Shown here: positions 3,510-11,286 of the stretch, in pieces
How the letters are laid out: each line of letters starts with the position of its first letter
How positions within the stretch are numbered: the stretch's first letter is position 1
Source of the DNA: a virus
Direction: 5' to 3' (one strand)
DNA length: 27,749 nucleotides
Virus record (IMG/VR): IMGVR_UViG_3300037218_000026
Span: 1-27,749 of that record
Made by a program: the position numbers and the translations under genes
The notes under the pieces: model-generated
Told to the model about the DNA's origin: nothing
Databases searched by the model: none
Seen by the model: only the letters and a program-made list of their open reading frames with translations

Positions 3510-3751
3510 CACGCCTTCCCTCCCTTCCCTCTGGCGGCCTTCCTGCGCTCGCGTTCCTTGCGGGCATAGATTTCGGCAGCCAGGTCGAAAACGCCGCGCC
3601 AGGACACTTCGTAGCGCGTTCTTGTGCCAAGCAATCGTACAGCGGCATGGTCGGGATAGACTTCGATTACGATGTCCCGGTCCTTGCCCCGATACCGGGC
3701 CGTAGCGTTGGTGATGAAGCTGAGTCGTGACTTGCGGTGAGAAAGTCTCAT
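3509..3751 (-). CDS. Basic hypothetical protein (80 aa)
   Basis: ATG 3751 overlaps the stop of the exonuclease gene (ATGA). The product has an N-terminal strand-rich part (SRLSFITNATARYRGK, RDIVIEVYPDHAAVRLLG), then a helix (WRGVFDLAAEIYARKERERR) and a Lys/Arg/Gly tail ending KAARGKGGKA. The basic tail and small size suggest a nucleic-acid-associated accessory factor of the recombination module. This is inference only; no family recognised. Confidence 0.65.
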   Translation of the reverse strand: MRLSHRKSRLSFITNATARYRGKDRDIVIEVYPDHAAVRLLGTRTRYEVSWRGVFDLAAEIYARKERERRKAARGKGGKA

Positions 3752-4476
3752 GCGTAATCTTCCCTCCCCTGATCCAGGATGGCTACGATCGGCTGTGGCC
3801 CGTGTTTTAGTTTGGCGATTTCGACGCTTTTGCGAAGCAGCGGTTCCATGTCGCCCAGACAGGAGAGCCGCACGAGCATGTCTTTTACCTCAGCCAGAAA
3901 TTTCGTTACCTCGAGCTCGATTTCGGCAATGCGAGTTTGGTCGCGCGGGAATCTGCGGACGAAGAGTTGCAGTTCGGAAGGGAGGCGCGGATCGAAACTT
4001 ACGAAGTCGCACCAGGCTGCATTGGTGCAGGCCATCTCTGCCAACATCTGGTGCTGATATTCGGCTGGCACATCGCCTTTAAGCAGGTATTCAATGTGGG
4101 TTGCGGTGTGTGGACATTTGAATTGAACGAGGCCCTTGCCGATCATCCCGTCCGGCGATGCCCCAAAGGATTCGATCGTGGGATGCAAGACAAATCCAAC
4201 GGTGTCAATCATGACCTCGTATTTCAGCTCATAAGCGGCGCGCGCGAAAGGCTCTGTGTCGATTCCCCATTGCATGGGGCGGCTCACGAAAGGATTATCT
4301 GCTGGTGTCCCGGTTAGAACTTCGGCGATGATCTGCGCCCGATAGTTGGCCCGGGTGGTAGCCTCGCGTCCTTTGACTTTAGCGAGAACGTCAGCGATAC
4401 AGGAAGCCGTGACCTTGCCTGCGCGAGCCATGCGCCAGGCTTCGGTGCGTTGCTCCAGCAGGAGTGGAGAGTTCAT
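3748..4476 (-). CDS. YqaJ-type (lambda exonuclease-like) phage recombinase nuclease, 242 aa
   Basis: YqaJ/lambda-exo proteins degrade one strand of dsDNA 5' to 3' to expose ssDNA for a partner annealing protein. Seen here: an N-terminal signature QRTEAWRMARAGKVTAS (residues 9-25), WGIDTEPFARAAYE (70-83, with conserved Glu 75), GASPDGMIG (Asp 109), then VQFKCPHTATHIEYL (118-120 as Gln-x-Lys) and EYQHQMLAEMACT. Length is usual for the family. The position that is Glu in the PD-(D/E)xK core reads CAA (Gln 118), so activity may be altered. Overlaps ATGA with the annealing-protein gene upstream and with the basic protein gene downstream, so all three are likely translated together. Confidence 0.93.
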   Translation of the reverse strand: MNSPLLLEQRTEAWRMARAGKVTASCIADVLAKVKGREATTRANYRAQIIAEVLTGTPADNPFVSRPMQWGIDTEPFARAAYELKYEVMIDTVGFVLHPTIESFGASPDGMIGKGLVQFKCPHTATHIEYLLKGDVPAEYQHQMLAEMACTNAAWCDFVSFDPRLPSELQLFVRRFPRDQTRIAEIELEVTKFLAEVKDMLVRLSCLGDMEPLLRKSVEIAKLKHGPQPIVAILDQGREDYA

Positions 4477-5258
4477 CGGAGCTCCTTTCGTCGCTGGTCC
4501 TTAGCGGTGATGTAGGCGGCTTGCGTCTTCCGTTCGTTGGTGCTTTTGTATGCGTTGGCGAAGGCGATGCGGAGCTGTTCCATATTGGCGGCCTTCTGGA
4601 TCGCGCGGATGAAATCACTAACCTGATTCGTTTTCTCGGCGGGTGAGGACGCGAGGGCATCAGTGTCCGGACTCGCGTCGGCTAATCCGGTGGCAGCCAT
4701 CAGGGTGTAGCGCTCCAGATATTTCGCGCTGGATCCGATGGCCTGAATCGCATTCTTGCTGCCGGAATGATCGACGGGACCTTCGAGCGTAGTCTGTTCG
4801 CTGTGTCCGAATTTGTGGGTCAAAACGCAGGTGACACGCACCGTCTCTGGCTGCGGCTGTTCGACAATCCAGCGGTGCGAGATGCCGTGGCGACTCAGTT
4901 CCGAGAGAACGGCATCATGAATGTGGTCAAGCGTGGAATATTCCCACTCGACGAGCTCGCCATTCTTGCCGACAAACTTGGCAACCTCGTTCTTGGTGAT
5001 CTGCGGCGGATTCGCCTTGAAGCCGTTCATGGCTTCCACGTAGGCTTTCTTGGCTTCACTCCGCTGCCAGCGCTCCTGTAAATCCATAAGCTGCGAAAGC
5101 TTTGCCAGGTCGGCATTCTGGGCAACGGCGATGCGAAGCAAGTCCGTAGGAGTTGAAGTTTCCGGCAAGGCCGGACGTGCAGGAACCAGAGCCTCGGAGC
5201 GGCGAAAAGGCCAAAGTTTCCAATTGAAAGGAAGATTAAGCGGCAGACTGTTATCCAT
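4473..5258 (-). CDS. erf: ERF-family single-strand annealing protein, 261 aa
   Basis: ERF proteins anneal complementary ssDNA and promote phage recombination or circularisation. Seen here: a central core with ERWQRSEAKKAYVEAMNGF, ITKNEVAKFVGKNG, and YSTLDHIHDAVLSELSRHGI. The family hallmark SGSKNAIQAIGSSAKYLERY lies near residues 165-184 and is followed by TLMAATGL. The C-terminal 70 residues are helical and charged. The start ATG 5258 has AAAAGGAG close upstream. The stop overlaps the exonuclease ATG, the standard annealing protein plus exonuclease pairing. About 60 N-terminal residues before the core are Pro-rich and probably flexible. Confidence 0.93.
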   Translation of the reverse strand: MDNSLPLNLPFNWKLWPFRRSEALVPARPALPETSTPTDLLRIAVAQNADLAKLSQLMDLQERWQRSEAKKAYVEAMNGFKANPPQITKNEVAKFVGKNGELVEWEYSTLDHIHDAVLSELSRHGISHRWIVEQPQPETVRVTCVLTHKFGHSEQTTLEGPVDHSGSKNAIQAIGSSAKYLERYTLMAATGLADASPDTDALASSPAEKTNQVSDFIRAIQKAANMEQLRIAFANAYKSTNERKTQAAYITAKDQRRKELR

Positions 5259-8136: not shown

Positions 8137-8553
8137 ATGGAGCGAATTGTCGTCAAAATCGCGAGCGAGAAAGAGCGCGACGAAATGTTGCGCTGGCGAC
8201 CCGCTACACTCGACGGCGATTTGATGGATCTCGACATCTTCAACCATGACTCCACTTTCTCGCTGTGCGCGATCGGCGAATCCGGGCGCATGGCCTATTT
8301 GCCTGTGCAGCAGCCCTTGATGCTGGAAAATCTAATCTTTCGTCAGGGGTTGACCGAGAGGCAGACAGCGGCGGCGATTACGAGATTGGCAGAGCGCGCG
8401 GTCGGGGAAGCCTATCGCAGAGATGCCGGCGAACTATATTTTCTCTGCCGCGATCGATCTACTTGTGACTTTGCCGAGCGCCACAATTTCAAGATGCTGC
8501 CTGAAGAGTTGAAGGTCTACCGGTTGAATCTGCTGGAAACTTTCGGATGCTAG
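8137..8553 (+). CDS. GNAT-like phage protein (138 aa)
   Basis: ATG 8137 starts four bases after the previous stop. The product begins MERIVVKIASEKERDEMLRW. Strands (STFSLCAIGESGRMAYLPVQ) are followed by a helix with a stretch TAAAITRLAERAVGEAYRRD, then a strand GELYFLCRDRS, FAERHNFKMLPEE and KVYRLNLLE. The order helix, strand, short helix with F-x-x-x-x-F, final strand resembles the second half of the GNAT acetyltransferase fold, and such proteins occur in phage late regions. A clear acetyl-CoA loop (Q/R-x-x-G-x-G/A) is not visible, so enzyme activity is doubtful. Overlaps the recombinase start by 7 nt. Confidence 0.55.
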   Translation: MERIVVKIASEKERDEMLRWRPATLDGDLMDLDIFNHDSTFSLCAIGESGRMAYLPVQQPLMLENLIFRQGLTERQTAAAITRLAERAVGEAYRRDAGELYFLCRDRSTCDFAERHNFKMLPEELKVYRLNLLETFGC

Positions 8554-9125
8554 TAGCCCTCTACGCTCGCGTATCGAAGAACTGCGTGACCTGCGGAAAA
8601 ACTCCCGATCAACACAAAGGACTCAGCCATAGCTATGAAGGGCAGAATCCAGAAGTGCAACTCCGCGAGTTGCGCGAATGGTGCAAGAAAAACGATCACA
8701 CGATCATAGCGGAATATGTCGATCGATTGAGCGGTAAAGACACTCGCCGGCCGGAACTTCAGAAACTCATGCGGGATGCGACCAAAGGACTGCGCGACCT
8801 GGATGCAGTCGTGGTGTGGAAGCTAGATCGGTTCGGACGATCGCAGCGCGATCTGCTCAATCTGGTCGAGGATTTGAAAGCCGCGAAGGTCGCGTTCATC
8901 AGCTACAGCGAAAACTTCGATTTGACGACGCCGATGGGCAAAGTGATTTTCGGAATCATGGCCGCCTTCGCAGAGCTTGAGCGAAATAACATAAGCGAGC
9001 GCACCAAGGCGGGGCTGGCCCATGCGCGATCGGCCGGCCGTATCCCAGGTCCGAAGATTGACCCGAAGGTCGGGCCGAGCAGGTGGACGATCAATCGCAG
9101 GCGCAAACGCGAGCAGGCTGCATAA
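8547..9125 (+). CDS. Small serine recombinase (resolvase/invertase family), 192 aa
   Basis: Members cut both DNA strands with a serine nucleophile at a site with a 2-bp centre and rejoin after rotation. Seen here: LVALYARVS with Arg 8 and catalytic Ser 10, then VVVWKLDRFGRSQRDL (Asp 94, Arg 95, Arg 98), MGKVIFGIMAAFAELERN and the long E-helix ISERTKAGLAHARSAGR. Odd: a Cys/His-bearing insertion (NCVTCGKTPDQHKG) lies directly after Ser 10 where relatives have a short loop. After GRIPGPKIDP the usual DNA-binding helix-turn-helix is missing and replaced by a basic tail (RWTINRRRKREQAA). A large integrase is ruled out by length. A palindrome with a 2-bp centre follows 8 nt downstream. Confidence 0.93.
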   Translation: MLVALYARVSKNCVTCGKTPDQHKGLSHSYEGQNPEVQLRELREWCKKNDHTIIAEYVDRLSGKDTRRPELQKLMRDATKGLRDLDAVVVWKLDRFGRSQRDLLNLVEDLKAAKVAFISYSENFDLTTPMGKVIFGIMAAFAELERNNISERTKAGLAHARSAGRIPGPKIDPKVGPSRWTINRRRKREQAA

Positions 9126-9133
9126 TGCGCTCG

Positions 9134-9155
9134 GTGCAATTCGACCGAATTGCAC
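9134..9155. other. Perfect 10-bp inverted repeat with 2-bp centre, candidate recombination site
   Basis: GTGCAATTCG (9134-9143) and CGAATTGCAC (9146-9155) are exact reverse complements separated by AC. A 2-bp non-palindromic centre between inverted half-sites is the layout of serine recombinase crossover sites. It begins 8 nt after the recombinase stop. No T-run follows, so it is a poor terminator. Binding by the recombinase is inferred. Confidence 0.55.
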
Positions 9156-9165
9156 TATCAACGAC

Positions 9166-9199
9166 TTAGCGGCAAAATCGAGCGGAATAGCGGCAAAAA
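9166..9199. repeat. AGCGG repeat cluster upstream of the small terminase gene
   Basis: Three AGCGG units lie at 9168, 9181 and 9189; the outer two continue as CAAAA. With the clusters at 6328 and 6797 they form a family of short repeats. Lying about 200 bp before the small terminase gene, they could be a packaging start or replication element. The rest of 9200-9398 holds an AT-rich T-tract but no clear promoter. Confidence 0.45.
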
Positions 9200-9289
9200 C
9201 CTCACCGGAAATCAAAAACAATCAAACATCTGCTTGAGCTGAAACGAGTTGACTGCTCCGTGGACATGCAATCTGAAATTTGCAAGTTA

Positions 9290-9406
9290 ATGAAAACGCT
9301 ACAACGGCCTACGTGCGATCGTTTGATTGTCTTGAAAAGGGGTTGGTTTTCTTTGATTTCTTTGAATTTCTGGGGCATTTTTCAAACGGGGTTCGAGTGT
9401 GCCTAG
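9290..9406 (+). CDS. Doubtful 38-aa ORF before the small terminase
   Basis: ATG 9290 opens a frame starting MKTLQRPTCDRLIVLKRGWF and ending TAG 9404-9406, overlapping the small terminase GTG by 8 nt. The second half is hydrophobic (WFSLISLNFWGIF) because of the T-rich DNA. No ribosome binding site. It may be untranslated leader. Confidence 0.2.
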   Translation: MKTLQRPTCDRLIVLKRGWFSLISLNFWGIFQTGFECA

Positions 9407-9851
9407 GGGTGGAGCTCGAGAGAATGCCGGCCGAAGGGAAAAACCTCGGATTGAACAGATCGCCACAAAAGGTATCGCGACCGAAGTCCTCGCGATGGAC
9501 GGCGCGCCAGAGCATGAACGCAAGTGCAAATGCCAGGTTTGTGTTGACCACCGGAGTCGCCGCTGCAAATGCATCAAGGTCCACGATCAACCGCTCCCCG
9601 AAGAATGCGAGAAATTCGCCGAGCACCGGATCTGTCACTGTGAAATCTGCGGCTGGTGGGAACCATTGCTCGCGAAAGACATGCGGCTTAGGAAAGAGAC
9701 CCGGCAGTACCTCACGGATCGGCGCGATGGCAAACCGGCGCAAGGCGTCTTCATCGGCGACACCCGCGAATCGTCGGTGGACGTAGACTTTGGCGACATC
9801 CTTATGCCAGCCGCCCCGGATAAGCCTCGAACGGCTGGTAAACCCAACTGA
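9399..9851 (+). CDS. Probable small terminase subunit with Cys cluster (150 aa)
   Basis: GTG 9399 gives MPRGGARENAGRREKPR, the basic Gly/Ala/Arg start common in small terminase subunits, which bind the packaging site and load the large subunit. The C-terminal part YLTDRRDGKPAQGVFIGD also matches the tail of many small terminases (DR-x-x-GKP). It sits directly before, and overlaps, the large subunit gene. Odd: the middle holds nine Cys, including two C-x-C-x-x-C clusters at Cys 43/45/48 and 79/81/84, plus C-x-C at 56/58 and Cys 70, suggesting one or two metal sites. An overlapping frame at 9280-9786 lacks such motifs. An alternative reading is a separate zinc DNA-binding protein fulfilling the same role. 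Confidence 0.65.
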   Translation: MPRGGARENAGRREKPRIEQIATKGIATEVLAMDGAPEHERKCKCQVCVDHRSRRCKCIKVHDQPLPEECEKFAEHRICHCEICGWWEPLLAKDMRLRKETRQYLTDRRDGKPAQGVFIGDTRESSVDVDFGDILMPAAPDKPRTAGKPN

Positions 9852-11286
9852 GCGACAGCGTGAAGTTCTCGATGCGATCGCAGAACATGATTTTGTTCTC
9901 TTCGGTGGCGAAGCTGGCGGCGGCAAGAGCTACATCCTGCGCTGGTGGTTGGTTCTCTATCTGGTTTGGTGCTTTAAGGTTCTCGGCCTGCGGAATGTCG
10001 TTGCCGGATTGTTCTGTGAAGACTATCCCAACCTTCAGGACCGCCAGGTCTCGAAAATTGAGCATGAGTTTCCGAAGTGGCTCGGGGGTCTCACTTACAA
10101 AAAAGTATGGAACTTTCAATTGCGCCCGGAGTTCGGCGGCGGCGTCATCGCGCTGCGCAATCTGGACAAAATGGAGAAGTACAAGTCCGCAGAGTTTGCG
10201 GCCGTCGCTCTTGATGAAGTCACGCTCAACCCTCTCAGCGTTTTTAACTGGTTGCGCTTTCGGCTGCGTTGGCCCGGTATCGACCGGCCGAAATTCCTTG
10301 GGGCTACCAACCCCGGCGGCATCGGCCACACCTGGGTTAAGAATTACTGGCATGACCATAAATTCCCACCGGAGCTCGAAACGATCAGAGATCAGTTTGT
10401 GTTGGTCAAAGCTAAGTCGAGCGACAACCCACATCTGCCGGCTGGCTACCACGACCGCCTGCTCACGCTTCCGCCAGACATGGCGCGCATGGTCGGCCGC
10501 GGCGATTGGAACGTTTACACCGGTCAGTATTTCCCGCAGTTTGAGGAGTCGCGTCATGTGCTCAAAGCTGCCGATGCCGTTAAGCTGCTCAAGCCCTGGC
10601 ATACCCGCTGGATCTCGGGTGACTGGGGATTTGAACATCCAGCCTGCTGGCACTGGCACGCGAAAGACGAGCACAACCGCGTCATCACCTATGACGAAAT
10701 ATGGAATCGCCGCGTAGGCGAAATCGAGTGGGGACAGTTAATCACAGCACGCGAGGCGCAATGGAAGGCGCGATTCGGCGAAGGCTATCGGCCGTTGCAG
10801 TCCTTCCCGTTCTCCTGGGACGCCGGAAAACTCAGTCCGCGATCAAGGCCCAAATATCCGAAGTCAATTGTGCAGCTCGTGAGCGATGCGCTCGGAGCGG
10901 GAATCCCGAAGCCACATCCCGCAGATTCAACGCCAGGCTCGCGCATGTCCGGCTATCGTCTAATGGCTCAACTCCTCGATACCGATCACTGGAAAATCTC
11001 AGACAGTTGCCCTCGGTTGATCGAGTGCCTGCCGACGCTTATTCGCGATGAAGACGACACTGAATCAGTTCTTAAAGTTGATTATGCCGAAGGGGACACG
11101 ATTGGAGACGACCCAGCAGACTCAGCGCGCATGGGAATTCAACACATGCTGGGGAGCCCAGTGAAGCCGAAGTCCGTGCAACTCGAAGAGAGATTCCAGA
11201 GCGTAAGACGGACCTTCGCCAAGCCCACTGAAGCGGCGAGCGGAACCGACTTCTGGACTCGTTTCGGTGGCAAGAAGGTGGAATGA
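9790..11286 (+). CDS. terL: Large terminase subunit (ATPase-nuclease), 498 aa
   Basis: Powers DNA packaging into the prohead and cuts the concatemer. Seen from the TTG at 9790: Walker A GGEAGGGKS (39-47), Walker B AAVALDE (137-143), coupling motif GATNPGG (171-177), then the C-terminal RNase H-like nuclease with SGDWGFEHPACWHW (Asp 278) and a late acidic motif GDDPADSARMG (439-449). The length is close to P22 gp2 (499). No ATG exists near the start; TTG 9790 overlaps the small subunit by 62 nt and the start may be a little later. The stop overlaps the next ATG (ATGATG). Confidence 0.97.
   Translation: MATSLCQPPRISLERLVNPTERQREVLDAIAEHDFVLFGGEAGGGKSYILRWWLVLYLVWCFKVLGLRNVVAGLFCEDYPNLQDRQVSKIEHEFPKWLGGLTYKKVWNFQLRPEFGGGVIALRNLDKMEKYKSAEFAAVALDEVTLNPLSVFNWLRFRLRWPGIDRPKFLGATNPGGIGHTWVKNYWHDHKFPPELETIRDQFVLVKAKSSDNPHLPAGYHDRLLTLPPDMARMVGRGDWNVYTGQYFPQFEESRHVLKAADAVKLLKPWHTRWISGDWGFEHPACWHWHAKDEHNRVITYDEIWNRRVGEIEWGQLITAREAQWKARFGEGYRPLQSFPFSWDAGKLSPRSRPKYPKSIVQLVSDALGAGIPKPHPADSTPGSRMSGYRLMAQLLDTDHWKISDSCPRLIECLPTLIRDEDDTESVLKVDYAEGDTIGDDPADSARMGIQHMLGSPVKPKSVQLEERFQSVRRTFAKPTEAASGTDFWTRFGGKKVE

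Follow-up and report, generated by a model that had tools for sequence, protein, structure and literature searches.

A small serine recombinase of soil phages and an adjoining palindrome as a putative co-inherited module

The described systems closest to the one analyzed here are the resolvases and invertases, in particular, gamma-delta/Tn3 resolvase and Gin, with which it has in common the catalytic domain, the long helix E and a dyad with a 2-bp centre; among PDB entries, the best sequence matches are to Gin, with gamma-delta further down. It differs from the resolvases and invertases in that one conserved helix takes the place of the C-terminal helix-turn-helix (HTH) and that there is a single dyad, with no resolvase sites II/III or enhancer recognised. 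The large serine integrases Bxb1, TP901-1 and phiC31 also are phage-borne and have a related catalytic domain, but the enzyme described here has no recombinase or zinc-ribbon domain, with a total length of about 170-200 amino acids. The phage P1 genome contains a single lox-like site adjoining its recombinase, Cre, and in this arrangement resembles the present locus; Cre, however, is a tyrosine recombinase, whereas the enzyme here is of the serine type.

The plasmid prophages of the Bacillus cereus group, as covered in the available part of the report on them (PMC8026635), are comparable in having one small serine or Xer-type recombinase in the same kind of phage, although the recombinase detailed there has a small C-terminal HTH that is missing here, and the partition genes present there were not found here. 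For acidobacterial phage isolates, the available part of another report (PMC11924767) lists annotated recombinase or integrase genes in 3 of 5. None of the 50,697 records of named phages contains a protein at least 60% identical to the recombinase, nor does any of the best 5,000 plasmid records; no description of such a recombinase-palindrome pair was found in the open-access literature, most subscription papers being outside the scope of that search. The window, that is, the whole stretch of DNA analyzed, is a complete IMG/VR virus record of 27,749 bases, itself an unclosed fragment, and the family of recombinases and palindromes to which it belongs comes from soil phages.

The recombinase and its C-terminal tail

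The relevant features of the gene, all on the plus strand, are:
8547-9125, plus strand: small serine recombinase, 192 amino acids, entire gene (ORF; Pfam Resolvase, E 4e-42; IMG/VR relatives 100-58% identical)
8631-9041, plus strand: catalytic (Resolvase) domain match, residues 29-165 (Pfam PF00239)
8931-9032, plus strand: long helix spanning residues 129-162, the counterpart of gamma-delta helix E (AF2 model; phmmer alignment)
9069-9122, plus strand: C-terminal tail with a GPS-x-x-T-x-W-R-R-type motif (GPSRWTINRR here) and one predicted helix, residues 179-191 (alignment and AF2 model)

The Resolvase domain is the sole Pfam match above the cut-off, and no HTH_7, Recombinase or zinc-ribbon model matches the 192-residue protein at E≤0.1. 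Residues Arg8, Ser10, Asp94, Arg95 and Arg98, which we take to be those of the serine-recombinase active site, are invariant in the alignment of 35 sequences. The domains of the large serine integrases are absent, the protein stopping at residue 192 with PF00239 alone above the cut-off, and so is the N-terminal HTH of the IS607 type, the catalytic domain beginning at the N terminus. By class, the protein is a serine recombinase that has the Resolvase catalytic domain and lacks the C-terminal HTH. Near the N terminus, before the catalytic domain match, residues 13-28 (positions 8583-8630) comprise a CxxC...H-like insert, which may be a zinc site gained and lost within the family: it is present in the close relatives of the window and in group 2b (see below) and absent from most other members.

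The absence of the usual C-terminal HTH, which had been predicted originally from the window alone, is borne out by the Pfam scan, without a match to any HTH model, and by the AlphaFold model, in which there is only one terminal helix. The accompanying claim that a basic tail replaces the HTH holds with respect to the short tail but not to its being merely basic: what is found is, rather, a conserved motif predicted to form one helix (179-191), with G176, P177, S178, T181 and R184 (window numbering) kept in all 35 aligned members. The HTH-bearing relatives from genomes continue from a GRP-type linker through further helices; compared to these, about 20 residues are absent here (the tail motif was examined in all 79 genome loci, with a control of 12/12; the full tails come from 41 entries, two of them empty or truncated). 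Loss of the HTH through a frameshift is unsupported because 35 of the 35 aligned relatives share the same kind of short-tail ending. L041, a relative with a longer tail, produced a weak HTH_23 match, and the 26-aa tail consensus found no match in named phages.

The AlphaFold model, built with 35 sequences as input (mean pLDDT 84), consists of the catalytic domain, the long helix 129-162, a linker, and the single helix 179-191; confidence is lowest in the linker (block means of 65-66) and reaches 78-82 in the last helix. Foldseek and VIA-align matched the model to the catalytic domain of TP901-1 (3bvp; Z 18.3, rmsd 1.9 Å, 128 residues aligned), such matches concerning chiefly the catalytic part and helix E, not the tail.

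The palindrome and its inheritance with the enzyme

Downstream of the gene, the window contains:
9134-9155, no strand: 22-bp palindromic site GTGCAATTCG-AC-CGAATTGCAC, proposed crossover site (sequence, single-copy search, comparison)
9144-9145, no strand: dinucleotide at the centre, AC in the window; the near-identical phage L014/L192 has GT (comparison)
9157-9168, plus strand: ATCAACGACTTA, conserved one-sided flank (group-1 comparison, BLAST boundary test)
9399-9851, plus strand: putative small terminase (position and relatives only, no family match)
9790-11286, plus strand: large terminase subunit (phrog_2, E 1.2e-22)

The palindrome, with its 10-nt arms and 2-nt centre, is perfect and starts 8 nt past the recombinase stop, exactly as predicted. 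It occurs once in the 27,749-base record and is the sole perfect palindrome in the window at arms of at least 10 and loops of 0-8. By itself, this is weak evidence, because 100 dinucleotide shuffles of the window yield, on average, 0.38 such palindromes when loops of 0-8 are allowed and 0.07 when the loop is 2 nt; comparison therefore was needed, and it is the comparative evidence that makes the palindrome significant.

The scan of viral contigs yielded 8 loci with the protein as the query and 52 with the alignment. A dyad and then ATCAACRACTTA come after the gene in 28 of these 52 loci; these 28, along with the window, the genome contig L063 and four new contigs, make up the 34 sequences of group 1, each of which carries a diverged dyad after the recombinase and then ATCAACRACTTA. 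The commonest dyad in this group is TTTCATATCG-NC-CGAANTGAAA, and, although the letters differ, the general plan is shared: outer TTTC/GAAA, inner TC(G/A)/(C/T)GA, a centre in which the first base is variable (0.09 bits), and the flank. Group 2 (19 of the 52 loci, 42-49% identical to the window protein) has the dyad TTTCAATTCA-CC-TGAATTGAAA located 68-474 bp upstream of the start of the recombinase match in 19/19 loci; the remaining five loci, L041 among them, are without a dyad. The site of L057, a form with more mismatches, was missed by the stricter pattern and was typed from the earlier dyad comparison. All 53 loci of the two groups thus have a diverged form of the dyad next to the recombinase gene, and because the site lies downstream in group 1 and upstream in group 2, it stays with the enzyme despite switching sides.

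Scanning the collection with the extended site pattern produced 21 matches, all of which adjoin a group-1 recombinase. Among the 24 matches to the palindrome pattern, 15 adjoin a serine recombinase of the family, one adjoins a tyrosine recombinase and eight are unrelated. Matches of the 42-nt consensus site to a Vibrio phage and a Citrobacter plasmid, in a search of named phages and plasmids, were judged to be due to chance.

Examination of the recombinase tree (46 distinct family members) indicates that base 10 of the site (G or A) changed once, compared to about 15 times in shuffles. The terminase type, in contrast, is almost randomly distributed, with 8 changes on the tree of 20 group-1 members vs 9.3 in shuffles (types labelled from the best tblastn hits; near-copies and loci with a weak or no TerL hit, e.g., L016, L018, L022 and L029, omitted). 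The recombinase-site pair precedes at least three unrelated terminase types, without tree agreement, pointing to frequent module exchange at the junction between the pair and the terminase.

The extent of the conserved element was delineated by BLAST comparison of 20 group-1 loci (190 pairs, 98 of them with an alignment across the site). Similarity never ends before the last base of ATCAACRACTTA; the offset of the alignment end is at least 35, with a median of 39.5, and 75 of the 98 alignments stop by 45, that is, conservation ends at a 35-bp element. Within the 21 unique group-1 sites, pairs 1-4 and 8-10 are kept in 16-21, and pairs 5-7 in 10-13. A perfect inverted copy of ATCAACRACTTA is present 160-172 bp past the site in L023, L035, L036, L142 and L144, and a copy with one mismatch in four more sequences, most others having none; with respect to the three-part layout of res, one dyad and ATCAACRACTTA are seen, joined by the inverted copy (0-1 mismatch) in 9 of the 34 sequences. 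On these comparisons, the recombinase and the palindrome appear to be one co-inherited module, and both the association and the dyad itself are firm.

Recognition of the site and its central dinucleotide

Enzyme and site change together. Helix-E sequence ERT is found with G10/C13, and ERI or ERV with A10/T13, with no exceptions among the rows compared; in the ungapped phmmer alignment (136-170 vs 109-143), Thr153 of the window protein corresponds to Thr126 of gamma-delta resolvase, which, according to a published report (PMC3783163), intercalates between base pairs near the scissile phosphate. Similarly, GTGC arms are found only in the window, its near-copies and L015, in which the tail reads SRWTIN, not SR-x-T-x-W. 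Because each of these co-changes is a single event on the tree, they are not independent replications and are suggestive rather than proof.

The palindrome probably is the enzyme's own crossover site. Two recombinase subunits would bind the two half-sites, with helix E and the linker reading the inner TC(G/A)/(C/T)GA beside the centre and the single C-terminal helix reading the outer TTTC (GTGC in the window phage); cleavage would occur at the variable dinucleotide in the centre, staggered by 2 bases, with strand exchange by subunit rotation. If so, the recombinase would be unusually small and its site short and well defined, the recognition of DNA by helix E and by the lone helix could be deduced from co-variation among natural sequences, and the question would arise how a serine recombinase reads DNA without an HTH; the pair would also be a compact candidate tool.

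The 2-bp centre determines polarity in the large serine integrases, as stated in the available part of PMC3642061. Across the 53 loci, seven centre types were identified (TC, AC, CC, GT, GG, AG and CA), and none of the four self-complementary dinucleotides is among them; group 2 has CC in 19/19. The centre differs even between close relatives. The window and L192 are 99.9% identical, with six differences over 10,737 positions in the main alignment, and two of the six are the change of the centre from AC to GT; the centres of L009 and L010 (99.2% identical, 7 mismatches in 3,285) are TC and CC, and those of L142 and L144 (97% identical, 46 mismatches in 1,644) are TC and AC, one base being changed in each of these two pairs. 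The centre is unchanged between the window and L191, and in the pairs L027/L028, L029/L031, L030/L031, L035/L036 and L016/L017, the aligned stretches of the last pair being identical. For the change from AC to GT in the relative of the window, hairpin template switching in the perfect palindrome may be an alternative origin. A centre that drifts to a non-complementary pair should no longer match an invariant site in the host, whereas a match to another copy of itself is always retained. Free drift of the centre provides a direct test of self-recombination against integration.

Possible uses of the site

The recombinase would normally act on directly repeated copies of the site, two per reaction and both from the phage itself, such as are present in genome dimers or multimers, and the system would monomerise (resolve) phage DNA, in a role similar to that of lox or res, rather than integrate it here. 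Tentatively, we consider such self-resolution of phage genomes the best-fitting main use. In its favour are the single flanked site in each near-complete genome, the lack of integrated copies among the loci found, the changes of the centre between close relatives, the intact site inside provirus-like records, and the additional tyrosine integrase in 5 of the 19 group-2 records. The explanation as a whole, a co-inherited module in which the enzyme acts at its crossover site and resolves phage DNA, appears to us evenly balanced between right and wrong; if true, serine recombinases of phages would gain a use resembling that of lox. Among the roles proposed originally for a minimal site-specific unit, namely integration, dimer resolution and inversion, the unit itself is upheld by its co-inheritance in 53 loci and resolution seems to fit best; inversion finds no support, given that none of the 13 records examined, some of which are near-complete, has more than one flanked site.

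Resolution is also the better-precedented role because, in the plasmid prophages of the Bacillus cereus group, as described in the available part of the report (PMC8026635), small serine and Xer-type recombinases are swapped within one group, and resolution of phage dimers is the role believed to be played by the Xer-type enzymes. For the phages analyzed here, there is no support for a plasmid prophage with a partition system because neither ParB_N nor a ParA-type ATPase was found above the cut-off in 23 records, with sub-cut-off ParB_N hits inside long ORFs of G020 and G021. A role in circularisation of the P1-lox type is weakened: in P22, packaging starts inside terS, and, if packaging is P22-like, the site would lie outside the terminal redundancy. 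On the minus strand of the window, a YqaJ nuclease and an ERF annealing protein are encoded next to each other (3748-5258, Pfam), a homologous recombination pair that could be a maker of phage multimers.

That the palindrome is, instead, an attP and the enzyme a miniature serine integrase inserting the phage at a matching host site is, in our estimation, unlikely. A recombinase directly adjoining a site is the usual int-attP layout: in each of the 28 viral group-1 records, the site adjoins the only serine recombinase and there is no tyrosine integrase, and in group 2, the order tail-geneX-site-recombinase resembles attP-int, with the constant centre CC that a fixed attB also would give. The non-complementary differences between the centres of close relatives, however, speak against a fixed partner, and no host-phage junction is seen at the site in any locus, a weak kind of absence, the hosts being poorly sampled. 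The genome scan (80 of 82 relatives kept, in 79 loci) turned up the family once, in L063, and this sole GTDB relative is a phage contig of a metagenome bin. In 34 of the genomes behind the 79 loci, all bacterial, the sole palindrome without mismatches is the L063 phage's own, and with one mismatch, there are 12 among the matches listed, in five genomes, along with three control hits. No HTH_3 repressor was detected in 18 viral group-1 records, group 2 yielded four sub-cut-off HTH_3 hits, and there are no CI-type repressor genes above the cut-off. The prediction of integration at the palindrome thus lacks positive evidence, and no prophage boundary was seen at the AC centre, which itself is not constant, being GT in the 99.9% identical relative.

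Provirus-like records bear on the same question. Records bounded by genes on both sides, presumably through provirus trimming, account for 7 of 11 group-2-type records (G042 included), compared to none of the 13 group-1 records inspected; in G030, G031, G033, G040, G081 and G082, the first codon is a start codon and the last base coincides with a gene boundary. G030, G031 and G082 retain an intact, internal site, with geneX or late genes, the site, the recombinase and the record end following one another on the right, which argues against attP. Group-2 contigs ending past the recombinase were considered as proof of integration at the palindrome and rejected, the ends being gene-bounded and the site internal. 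A tyrosine integrase is additionally present in 5 of the 19 group-2 records, in L050 directly after the serine recombinase. G081 contains the family site with the right flank (AGTCAAC at about +32) but no serine recombinase; the gene next to the site encodes a tyrosine recombinase:
L229 1611-2471, equal to G081 36443-37303: tyrosine recombinase ORF, 281 residues (PF00589, 1e-17)
Here, the enzyme behind one site appears to be replaced non-homologously, suggesting that the site is a relic or else has some function apart from the serine recombinase. Possibly, although we consider this doubtful, the family represents its own kind of genome-resolution system, with the HTH shrunk to one helix, a single asymmetric 35-bp site, a centre drifting through self-only encounters, a pair moving between phages with unrelated terminases, and a site that can be retained when a tyrosine recombinase takes over.

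An operator for the recombinase itself or for another dimeric regulator is improbable. A dyad with a variable 2-bp centre would suit a repressor as well, and the site is upstream of the recombinase in group 2 (by the 68-474 bp given above) and of the tyrosine recombinase in G081, but it is downstream of the gene in group 1, co-changes with the helix-E residue and the tail helix of the recombinase, and follows the recombinase on the tree, not the neighbouring terminase. Still less probable is a part of the packaging start (cos or pac). Groups 1 and 2a place the site just before the terminase genes, with inverted repeats following in the intergenic stretch; against this, the same site precedes at least three terminase types without tree agreement, conservation stops at the 35-bp element, and in group 2b, the site follows the tail genes and precedes the early genes. 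The latter position also weakens the analogy with P1 cre-lox-pac, under which every member would have the site close to where packaging starts. A terminator or another RNA hairpin is hardly credible: folding of the window copy is favourable (66 nt, -22.4 kcal/mol, z -2.6), but it has no T-run directly after it, most family copies are imperfect (22-mer energies averaging -3.6 kcal/mol), and only about half of the unique group-1 sites retain pairs 5-7, with the left half mostly TTTCATATC.

Between the site and the putative terS, the window contains the inverted repeats AATCAAAAACAATCAA / GTTTGATTGTC (9208-9360), possibly packaging or regulatory elements; similar AATCAAAC/GTTTGATT pairs were noticed by eye in L005, L009 and L142.
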